The notes beneath the pieces were generated by a model. The model had not been told where the DNA came from. It searched no databases and saw nothing but the letters and a program-made list of their open reading frames with translations. A program made the translations under genes and the position numbers. A stretch of DNA of 64,000 nucleotides from Bacteroidetes Order II. bacterium (GTDB taxonomy: Bacteria > Bacteroidota > Rhodothermia > Rhodothermales > UBA2364): the NCBI GenBank assembly GCA_016788705.1, contig JAEUSQ010000023.1:1-64000 (forward strand), in the 5' to 3' direction. Below, piece after piece: positions 1,501 to 29,010 of this stretch (positions are counted from its first letter, which is position 1; each line of letters begins with the position of its first letter).

Positions 1501-2139
1501 TTAGGTACATTCTAACAACAATTGTTCTACCGATTTTTTCAGGGAATTTAAGGGAGTATATCCTCGGGCGAGTACATACCCATTGGGTCCATCAATCCAT
1601 ACGACGGTAGGAAACCCATAAATGCCCATCTTCTTTACGGTTTCAAATTCGGCCTGTGTTTGTTGTAATACCGTTTCTTCTTGCATTTGGTTCACAAACT
1701 CATCTCCCATCAAACCCATCGTCTCTGCGAGGGAAACATACATTTCCCACTTGTCCGGATGTCTGCCATCGAAATAAACAGCCCGTTGAAGCGCGTGTGT
1801 AAACGGGACAATTTTAGAAGCCTCAAGGGCTTTAAGGGTCGTTAAGGCCAATCCTGGTTTTAATGAGTTTAGTTGCATATCGCCACCTCCCATCATGTCC
1901 TTCAGAAATGCCTCGCCGAACAAAACCCCCGTCACCTCCTCCACTTGCCGATAAGCGGTTTTAATAAAAGGTGCTTTTTCATTGATGGTACCCACACGAT
2001 CGCCTAAAATCATACCGCCGGAAAGAACGTCAAAATCCACACGGCCCTGATAAGCCACAAACAAGGCTTGCATTACAGGCGAAAACCCATAACACCATCC
2101 ACACAAGGCATCATAGACGTACAATATTTTGGGACGCAT
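1501..2139 (-). CDS. DsbA family oxidoreductase (FrnE-like)
   Basis: Thioredoxin-fold thiol oxidoreductase of the DsbA/FrnE type. The CGWC active site lies at residues 13-16 counting from the ATG at 2139, in the first beta strand/helix junction (YVYDALCGWCYGF), and the cis-proline loop is visible near the C terminus as GFPTVVW. About 212 residues, normal for the family. There is no signal peptide, so it is probably cytoplasmic like FrnE. An in-frame ATG at 2178 would add 13 residues; the later start fits homologous N termini better. It is divergent from the MFS pump at 2290. Confidence 0.85.
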   Translation of the reverse strand: MRPKILYVYDALCGWCYGFSPVMQALFVAYQGRVDFDVLSGGMILGDRVGTINEKAPFIKTAYRQVEEVTGVLFGEAFLKDMMGGGDMQLNSLKPGLALTTLKALEASKIVPFTHALQRAVYFDGRHPDKWEMYVSLAETMGLMGDEFVNQMQEETVLQQTQAEFETVKKMGIYGFPTVVWIDGPNGYVLARGYTPLNSLKKSVEQLLLECT

Positions 2140-2289
2140 CTGGAAACGTACTTGGTTATAAATGGATTTTCCAAACATTCACCAGTCATTTTCTGGTTTG
2201 TTCCGAGCCGCAAAACGAACAGAACTGAACTTCAAACATAAACCCCTATTCCGTTTGTATCTTAACGGCTTCACCAAAACAATATACGA

Positions 2290-3909
2290 ATGCTTGCTTC
2301 AACCGATACCTCCACTCCCGATAAAGGACTGGCATACAAATGGAAGGTACTTTGGTCGGTGATTTTTGGCCTATTTCTGGTTATCTTAGATCAAACCGTC
2401 GTCAATGTTGCTTTCCCTACCTTGCGTAATGAATTTAATGCCCCACTGGAAGACACACAATGGGTGCTGAGCATTTATGTCATGGCGATGGGAATTAGTA
2501 CGCCCTTGGCTGGTTTTTTGGGGGATCGTTATGGTATGAAGCGGATCTACATTTGGGGCATCGCCTTGTTTGTCATCAGTTCGTTGCTCTGCGGGTTATC
2601 CGACTCACTGCCTCTATTAATTGCCGCACGCGCCTTACAAGGCATTGGGGGTGGCTTGGCCCTACCATTAGGATCTGCGCAACTCTTTCGCGCATTCCCA
2701 CCACACGAACAAGGCTTGGCCCTTGGCCTGTTTGGTATTGCCCTAACCATGGCCCCCGCTTTAGGCCCTATCGTGGGCGGTTGGTTGGTGACGCACGACC
2801 TGTGGCGCTGGATATTCTACCTAAATGTGCCGATTGGCATTCTGGGGGTTGTGATTGCCTCGCGATGGCTTAAAGAAACCATACAGGAAAATGCTCCCAA
2901 ATTAAGTATTCCCAGCCTTATTGCCTCGACGATTGGTTTTGGTGCGCTTTTATATGCCGCTTCCATTGCTGCCGATAAAGGCTGGGCCTCCACGACGGTA
3001 CTGACGTGGCTTTTACTGGGTTTTGCAGGGCTTGGAGCGCTTTCCTATATCGAACTTAAAGTTTCACGAGAACCTTTATTGGATTTGCGCCTCTTTAAAA
3101 ATCCAATCTTCTTACGAGCAACCATTATCGGCTACGTCGCAACAGTTGCACTCTTCGGTGCAGAATTCTTGATGCCAATCTATTTACAGGCCCTACGTGG
3201 GTACTCTGCATTGGATACTGGTATTTATCTGCTCCCGCTTGCCTTGACTGCTGGCCTGGTGACCGCCATTTCTGGACGCATTTATGACTACATAGGCCCC
3301 CGTCCACTGATTGTCGTCGGATATGGCATCATCATGCTTAATACTTGGCATCTGTCCCATATTCAGGTTGATACAACCATTCAGCACATCATGTGGCTCT
3401 TGGCCGAACGAGGGATTGGTATTGGTCTTACCGTACAAGCAACGTTTACTGCCGCACTCGGGGTTGCGCCCTTAGAAAAAGTCTCGCGAGCATCTTCACT
3501 TATCAATGCTTCCCGAAATGCCATACAAGCCATTGCCGTGGCAATTCTTGCCACCATTCTTGTTAGTGCTGTATCTCCTAAAGTGAAGAACATCCAAGAC
3601 CAACTCATGCATGGTTCACCGTCGGCACAACAGGATGAGACCTTTAAAGGCGGTGTTTGTACCGAAATGCCTGCTGCGGGGAGCTTTGATGACCCCTTTG
3701 CCAACCCATTCGCCTCTGGATTGGGTAAAAAAATGCGTGACCTCCGAAAACAAGCCTGTACCGAAAACCTGCAAGGGCTTAGTGATGCCTACCGTATGAC
3801 CTTCTATTTCTCCATTTTAGCCTTTATGCTCGGGTTTTTGCTGCCCGGATGGCCTGGAAAATGGACCGGACGGGATGGCATTCGCCCACCTACAGCCGCT
3901 TCACATTAG
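2290..3909 (+). CDS. DHA2-family MFS transporter (EmrB/QacA type)
   Basis: A 539-residue integral membrane drug:H+ antiporter-like protein with about 14 hydrophobic segments, the layout of the DHA2 family. The first helix carries LDQTVVNVAFPTL, the signature of EmrB/QacA relatives, and helix 2-3 carries the MFS motif A-like GDRYGMKRIY. A polar loop near residues 440-500 precedes the last helix. The substrate cannot be read from sequence. There is no partner EmrA-type membrane-fusion gene next to it. An 18-base gap separates it from the GlmU-like gene, so the two may be cotranscribed. A TATCTT motif at 2258 lies 30 bases upstream, but no TTG is at the right distance. Confidence 0.88.
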   Translation: MLASTDTSTPDKGLAYKWKVLWSVIFGLFLVILDQTVVNVAFPTLRNEFNAPLEDTQWVLSIYVMAMGISTPLAGFLGDRYGMKRIYIWGIALFVISSLLCGLSDSLPLLIAARALQGIGGGLALPLGSAQLFRAFPPHEQGLALGLFGIALTMAPALGPIVGGWLVTHDLWRWIFYLNVPIGILGVVIASRWLKETIQENAPKLSIPSLIASTIGFGALLYAASIAADKGWASTTVLTWLLLGFAGLGALSYIELKVSREPLLDLRLFKNPIFLRATIIGYVATVALFGAEFLMPIYLQALRGYSALDTGIYLLPLALTAGLVTAISGRIYDYIGPRPLIVVGYGIIMLNTWHLSHIQVDTTIQHIMWLLAERGIGIGLTVQATFTAALGVAPLEKVSRASSLINASRNAIQAIAVAILATILVSAVSPKVKNIQDQLMHGSPSAQQDETFKGGVCTEMPAAGSFDDPFANPFASGLGKKMRDLRKQACTENLQGLSDAYRMTFYFSILAFMLGFLLPGWPGKWTGRDGIRPPTAASH

Positions 3910-27836: not shown

Positions 27837-28079
27837 ATGCGAAAAACAATTCTTGCAGACTTGGTGCCTCTGGCCTTACAAGCAACCGAACAGACCCTTT
27901 GCACTGGAGGCGCTGAACGCAAAGCCTTAACAAGACGTCCTTTGCCTAAAATGTATGGCCGTCGTCTCCCGATTACCACGATGATGGTGGGAGAAGAAGA
28001 GATGGCCACTACGTTGGCGATTGGTGAAGAGGGCGATCCTCCCAAAGCGACCACGATGATGGTGGGAGAAGAGTCTTAA
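27837..28079 (+). CDS. Graspetide (omega-ester peptide) precursor with three TTxxxxEE core repeats
   Basis: An 80-residue peptide. Residues 1-46 would be the leader (basic stretch RKALTRRPLPKMYGRRLP at 28-45). The C-terminal part holds three core units: TTMMVGEE at 47-54, TTLAIGEE at 58-65 and TTMMVGEE at 72-79, with linkers EMA and GDPPKA. TTxxxxEE is the core pattern of plesiocin-type (group 2) graspetides, in which an ATP-grasp ligase joins Thr hydroxyls to Glu side chains as esters, giving a hairpin-like bicycle per unit. The gene is followed within 50 bases by an ATP-grasp gene. Units 1 and 3 share 23 identical bases, which points to recent duplication. The microviridin leader motif PFFARFL is absent. 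Bioactivity is unknown. Confidence 0.85.
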   Translation: MRKTILADLVPLALQATEQTLCTGGAERKALTRRPLPKMYGRRLPITTMMVGEEEMATTLAIGEEGDPPKATTMMVGEES

Positions 28080-28085
28080 ATTCCG

Positions 28086-28118
28086 GGCCTACCGACCTAT
28101 TCGGTGGGCCTTTTTATT
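28086..28118 (+). terminator. Terminator between graspetide precursor and ligase
   Basis: GGCC-T-ACCGA pairs with TCGGT-G-GGCC around a five-base loop CCTAT, followed by TTTTTATT. The stem starts six bases after the precursor stop codon and the T run ends about ten bases before the ligase ATG. It would end most transcripts after the precursor and let a minority continue into the enzyme gene. Confidence 0.8.
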
Positions 28119-28128
28119 GGCTTTTGCA

Positions 28129-29010
28129 ATGATAGGTTTGTTTGGTGGGACGAAGGATCCCAATATTGCCTCCCTTTATCAGGTACTACAGGAGGCAGAT
28201 GTGCCTTTTTTACCCATTTTGGTAGGTCAAGAAGCTATTCCAGAAGTAATCTGGGACCTCTCTGCCGATCGGCTCATTCTGGATGGCCAAGAAGTCCGAC
28301 CGACGGCACTTTTCCATCGGTTCGATGTTTTTGCCTCATTTGGAGCATCGCAGGCACCTCTTGTACGCCGTGCGCAAGCGTGGCACGAACTATTTTATGG
28401 CTGGGCATTGGCACATGAGGACGTGGTACTGTTTAACCGGAATCACCAACGGACCAACAAATTGGCCGTACTGATAAAAGCGGCTGCATTAGGGCTACAA
28501 CCGCCCTATTCTGTGGCCACCAACCAAACGGCCTTGCTCGACAAGTTAGAAGGTGTGGGCTATATTTCAAAACCCATCCCCGGCGGCGACCAAACCCGCC
28601 TCTTATCCGAAGCCCTACAAGACCGCTTGATACACGAAATTCCTATGACCATACAACCCCGCTTGGTACAACCTGAATTACGTATTTATGGCATACGGGG
28701 GGTTTGGGCCGCATTCTGGATGAAAACTGAGTCTTTGGACTACCGCGTACAACAAGATGTAGAGGTCATCCAAACCGGTCCACCAGCGGATTTGGTGGAA
28801 AAATTGACCCAGTTGATGGCATGTATGCACTTAGACTTTGCTGCCGCCGACTTCAAGACCGATCCAGAATCGGGTGAACTACGCTTTTTGGAAATCAACT
28901 CCTCTCCTATGTTTGCCCGCTTCGACCTCGCTTCGGGTTCTGCCATCAGTAAAGCAATTGTGCAGGGGATGCTGGGAGATTCGGTCAAGAGTTACCGATT
29001 TTATTCTTAA
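28129..29010 (+). CDS. ATP-grasp peptide ester ligase (graspetide maturase)
   Basis: 293 residues from the ATG at 28129. ATP-grasp fold: Lys148 in GYISKPIPGG is the likely ATP-binding lysine, and the Mg-binding acid residues are Asp241 in AAADF and Glu255/Asn257 in RFLEINSSP. The region FNRNHQRTNKLAVLIKAAAL followed by GLQPP is the typical central part of graspetide ATP-grasp enzymes and RimK relatives. It should use ATP to activate Glu side chains of the adjacent precursor and ester-bond them to Thr. A TTG at 28117 would add four residues but lies inside the terminator T run. No transporter or peptidase gene is adjacent. The best alternative call is a RimK-like ligase of other substrate. Confidence 0.85.
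   Translation: MIGLFGGTKDPNIASLYQVLQEADVPFLPILVGQEAIPEVIWDLSADRLILDGQEVRPTALFHRFDVFASFGASQAPLVRRAQAWHELFYGWALAHEDVVLFNRNHQRTNKLAVLIKAAALGLQPPYSVATNQTALLDKLEGVGYISKPIPGGDQTRLLSEALQDRLIHEIPMTIQPRLVQPELRIYGIRGVWAAFWMKTESLDYRVQQDVEVIQTGPPADLVEKLTQLMACMHLDFAAADFKTDPESGELRFLEINSSPMFARFDLASGSAISKAIVQGMLGDSVKSYRFYS

Follow-up and report, generated by a model that had tools for sequence, protein, structure and literature searches.

Tandem TTxxxxEE units are the core consensus of graspetide group 2, the plesiocin group. The plesiocin system (PsnA2/PsnB) combines such units in one precursor with one ATP-grasp ligase. Plesiocin itself is tetravalent (PMC12291112). It is a potent serine-protease inhibitor, and precursors with more units give more potent products (PMC13097080). 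Every graspetide characterised by 2022 was a protease inhibitor (PMC8939145). In a published network, the PsnB group clusters at a ligase alignment score of 70 (PMC13097080). The microviridin and chryseoviridin ligases, MdnB, MdnC, AMdnB, and CdnC, are ester- or amide-forming peptide macrocyclases of the same superfamily. Chryseoviridin (PDB 7mgv) already represents the Bacteroidota, contrary to the original prediction that no graspetide was known from this bacterial group. The statement appears to hold for the narrower lineage, as none was found described from Bacteroidota Order II or the Rhodothermales in the literature searched.

The window, the whole stretch of 64,000 nucleotides analysed, contains a two-gene locus of similar design on the + strand. 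The first gene (27837–28079) encodes an 80-residue graspetide precursor, composed of a leader (residues 1–46; 27837–27974) and a C-terminal core with three TTxxxGEE units, compared with four units in plesiocin. A motif scan places the units at 27975–27998 (TTMMVGEE), 28008–28031 (TTLAIGEE), and 28050–28073 (TTMMVGEE). In the Rhodothermales precursors, the stop codon follows one residue past the last Glu. The second gene (28129–29010) encodes an ATP-grasp ligase of 293 residues that finds PsnB as its best match by both sequence and fold. The original prediction had described this pair, a peptide of 80 residues with three TTxxxxEE units followed by an ATP-grasp enzyme, and both reading frames are present. 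The ligase start is corrected from TTG 28117 to ATG 28129, because related ligases align from there; the protein is thus 293 rather than 297 residues long. The locus is very probably a two-gene graspetide cluster with a plesiocin-type core. It would extend the plesiocin-like graspetides to a branch of the Bacteroidota from which the literature searched describes none.

The three units are unlikely to be a coincidence of composition. TTxxxxEE-coding DNA is found at three sites in the window, all inside the precursor reading frame, with 0.27 expected by chance, and none of 100 shuffled windows contained three. When the letters of the precursor peptide were shuffled, at least three units arose in 1 of 200,000 trials. 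The 4.28 Mb genome contains five TTxxxGEE-coding sites, of which three are the precursor units. The other two, one within an NfeD-like protein and one in a stretch of 27 codons, were judged to be chance occurrences. The precursor has the tandem consensus of group 2. As in graspetides generally (Thr/Ser/Lys donors, Asp/Glu acceptors), the donor residues precede the acceptors in its conserved core, and a ligase gene is adjacent. A phmmer search with two precursors gave no match among PDB chains, which were all that was covered as to kinship with the PsnA2 leader.

The same precursor–ligase pair, which the original prediction proposed to look for in related genomes, occupies the corresponding position in G001 and G002, the two other available species of the genus. 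Gene order upstream is held in all three species, and that downstream in G001 only. The precursor is 55–85% identical to those of the two other species, and their alignment retains the leader pattern M-K--L-DL--LAL ... C-GG-E, which is predicted to serve in recognition. Relative to G001, the precursor has a dN of 0.094 and a dS of 0.426 (dN/dS 0.22), the core region a dN of 0.07 and a dS of 0.59, and the ligase a dN of 0.08 and a dS of 0.76 (dN/dS about 0.11). By these substitution rates, precursor and ligase are under purifying selection. Among 245 genomes of the class, a close ligase was found in no other genome, confining the cluster to one genus.

The class and phylum also contain more distant ATP-grasp genes. 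Other Bacteroidota matches (L013–L024, E values of 1e-11 to 1e-19) lie outside the window clade where they were put in the tree, and six of these stretches contained no small TTxxxxEE gene when scanned. In one of them, L017, from G311 of the same class, an ATP-grasp gene distantly resembling PsnB lies next to an open reading frame with KEKAEKEGK repeats (5–514, 520–1233, and 1246–2166). This locus may represent a further kind of graspetide, whose precursor is repetitive.

Several lines of evidence assign the ligase to the graspetide macrocyclases. No Pfam family matched it. The NCBIfam comparison, a check suggested in the original prediction, ranked graspetide ATP-grasp maturase families first (TIGR04187 at 6e-9, TIGR04185, and TIGR04184), albeit all below cut-off. 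A single-sequence search of solved structures returned PsnB first (6.3e-7). With a profile, PsnB is again the top match (E value 1e-22, positions 2–284 of 288), followed by AMdnB, CdnC, MdnB, PruB, and MdnC; all six matches at an E value of 0.001 are graspetide ligases. In an unrooted tree, the window clade and PsnB are separated from the microviridin-type ligases with a support of 95/93.

An AlphaFold model of the ligase was built from an eight-sequence alignment and has a mean pLDDT of 84.5. Its best fold match is the structure of precursor-bound PsnB (E value 2.4e-17). MdnC, AMdnB, CdnC, and PruB follow, and ArgX, DdlB, RimK, and amino-acid ligases rank below them. The TM-scores are moderate (about 0.7), consistent with domain movement and low sequence identity. 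Catalytic-type Lys, Arg, Asp, Glu, and Asn positions are invariant in an alignment of eight relatives. Two lysines, an arginine before IYG, and a DFK...EIN stretch are conserved in these relatives and match PsnB; they are the residues expected to bind ATP and Mg.

An ordinary amino-acid, dipeptide, or RimK-type ligase next to an unrelated small open reading frame could account for some of these matches. The ATP-grasp fold is shared, RimK and ArgX/LysX are among the lower-ranking fold matches, and the rimK_fam family is found further down the NCBIfam results (E value 0.028). However, the best 31 fold matches, like the six profile matches, are all graspetide ligases, and a TTxxxxEE gene lies beside every close homolog, the pair being conserved together. 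Such a ligase is therefore very improbable here. Ligase homologs without a nearby TTxxxxEE precursor had been named in the original prediction as evidence against it; each of the 13 close-clade loci has such a precursor. The acidic TTxxxGEE peptide might instead be a structural or metal-binding repeat whose neighboring ligase is silent or decayed, in keeping with the absence of a known product and of an exporter and a protease in the cluster. The low ligase dN/dS (about 0.1 against G001) and the invariant catalytic-type residues argue for an active enzyme, leaving scarcely any probability for this explanation.

Classification within the graspetides is less simple. The window ligase is about 28% identical to PsnB over 170 residues. 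Its pairwise alignment score is about 9 with PsnB, compared with 53–63 for the Gemmatimonadota relatives described below. The original prediction of a plesiocin-type group 2 cluster was right as to the graspetide reading and the core motif, but the ligase similarity falls well short of the group score of 70, as a pairwise value that leaves room for a link through unseen intermediates. The microviridin and chryseoviridin systems, in turn, differ from the locus in core motif and cage topology. The locus is best described as combining a plesiocin-type graspetide core with a distinct ligase lineage, a description supported by the core sequence; strict membership of group 2 is not claimed. "Distinct" here refers to comparison with PsnB and the Gemmatimonadota relatives rather than across the 43 published graspetide groups. 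No characterised member of this ligase lineage was found in the literature searched.

By analogy with plesiocin, the following course of biosynthesis is proposed. The ligase would be recruited by the N-terminal leader of the precursor and would use ATP to phosphorylate Glu side chains in each TTxxxGEE unit. These would then be joined to both Thr residues, so that each unit carries a nested pair of esters. With a maximum of six Thr–Glu esters (−108.06 Da, the mass loss expected in the original prediction), the peptide would contain a row of three hairpin bicycles. The calculated monoisotopic mass would fall from 8700.44 to 8592.38 for the whole precursor, from 2859.36 to 2787.32 for tryptic residues 44–70 (four esters), and from 1054.43 to 1018.41 for residues 71–80 (two esters). 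Like plesiocin, the product would most likely inhibit serine proteases in a multivalent manner.

The linkages may differ from those of plesiocin, with fewer esters per unit or another pairing of Thr and Glu residues. The distance of the ligase from PsnB points in this direction, as do Gra-5, a group 2 product that showed a single dehydration on expression (PMC9576775), and unit 3 of the sister species UBA2364, in which the first Thr is replaced by Ala. The spacing of the units is nevertheless the same as in the plesiocin motif, and both Thr and both Glu residues are intact in eight of the nine units of the three species, unit 3 of UBA2364 being the exception. Different linkages are therefore unlikely, though to be taken seriously. 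Under the plesiocin-type connectivity, the loss in UBA2364 predicts five esters there and six in the window.

The cluster is as minimal as the original prediction had it, and consists of precursor and ligase only. A D-serine dehydratase/alanine-racemase-fold gene lies upstream of it, and downstream are genes of the RDD and MutS families. Precursor and ligase genes are separated by 49 bases, which contain an intrinsic-terminator-like hairpin with an 11-pair stem and a T-run (28085–28118, + strand). The hairpin has a folding energy of −20.1 kcal/mol (z −3.6), better than all shuffles. Both sister species have an equivalent hairpin in the corresponding position (z −5.3 and −5.5). Covariation of the stem across the three species is weak, its level being reached by 46 of 500 shuffles, and the assignment of a terminator is thus based on the stability of each individual hairpin. 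The hairpin is probably a leaky terminator or attenuator that would keep precursor transcripts in excess of those of the ligase.

The leader contains a Gly–Gly pair at residues 24–25 (27906–27911) that is kept in three species and might be cleaved by a C39 peptidase. GG motifs are found in about half of all graspetide precursors, and the C39 peptidase is usually encoded outside the cluster (PMC8939145). The leader would be removed here by an enzyme encoded elsewhere, possibly a C39-peptidase ABC exporter. The genome has a single such exporter, which adjoins an HlyD-like gene on a separate 6.6 kb contig, C10. Processing of the precursor by this exporter is only a possibility, and it may serve other cargo. 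No precursor was recognised beside the exporter and HlyD-like genes (L038, 2462–5014 and 5024–6343) on that short contig.

The comparative picture around the cluster is more surprising than the cluster itself. Seven of the Gemmatimonadota genomes searched contain loci with a related ligase, ten in all. Eight of these ligases were compared directly and are 38–45% identical to the window ligase. The Rhodothermales and Gemmatimonadota ligases form one clade with a support of 100/99. At all ten Gemmatimonadota loci, a TTxxxxEE-bearing gene lies directly upstream of the ligase, and the pairing is thus not due to chance.

Eight of the loci contain 13 small precursors of about 35–90 residues, up to three in tandem (L003 4812–5927, L033 7178–7456, L034 6310–7431, L035 7038–7238, L036 2373–3294, L037 6155–6628, L060 2853–4301, and L062 5263–5403). 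In all 13, only a few residues precede the core and an N-terminal leader is absent, given start codons assigned in this analysis; a leader further upstream could not be a conserved one. The C terminus reads [PA][FL]GxF-COOH in every one of the 13, mostly NPFGxF, a count that would be smaller without bias, as nine of the 13 were aligned and the tag helped to pick out the last ones. This terminus is a candidate natural follower peptide. The recognition element is therefore likely to lie at opposite ends of the precursor in the two groups, N-terminal in Rhodothermales and C-terminal in Gemmatimonadota, as judged from these alignments.

The second variation concerns a larger protein. G740 and G758 each encode a second ligase of this clade, divergent in sequence, after a vanadium bromoperoxidase homolog (L061 5404–7347, − strand; L063 about 1596–3518, + strand). 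Residues 97–549 of the homolog match PDB 1qhb (E value 6.6e-98). At its C terminus, where the solved enzymes end, the homolog continues for about 98 residues in a tail that contains five or six GEE repeats and lacks the C-terminal tag. Graspetide-like repeats on bromoperoxidase tails, seen in these two genomes only, are a lead rather than a result.

The clade may have moved its recognition element in the course of evolution, with an N-terminal leader in the Rhodothermales branch and a short PFGxF-COOH follower in the Gemmatimonadota sister branch, while a third branch would act on the TTxxxGEE repeats of the bromoperoxidase tails. This proposal has about an even chance of being correct. It assigns no direction to the tag change, as the tree does not settle the order of the deepest branches within the clade. 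If the proposal is true, graspetides would offer a natural example of a leader-to-follower switch and also of their chemistry acting on a protein. A graspetide ligase is known to tolerate a C-terminal leader in the fuscimiditide system (ThfA/ThfB), in which the leader was engineered (PMC13003496), whereas the tag in Gemmatimonadota is apparently a natural one. The literature searched, which includes few subscription papers, gave no report of a C-terminal graspetide leader occurring in nature. Because closely related precursor–ligase sets carry the tag at the N terminus, at the C terminus, or on the tail of an enzyme, substrate recognition by graspetide ligases can be tested directly by comparing them. 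The sets could also provide short C-terminal tags with which to staple proteins.

Two minor features were observed at the Gemmatimonadota loci. First, a His/acid-rich gene of ~130 residues with no Pfam match is located downstream of the ligase in L003 (7235–7633), L033 (9853–10218), and L037 (9060–9389). Second, L035 (7038–7238), L036 (3037–3294), and L062 (5263–5403) encode short, Cys-containing precursors that combine KTLACGE(E/D) or KTQACGED with TTxxxxEE. The replacement of the first Thr by Lys in these precursors suggests a possible lactam.
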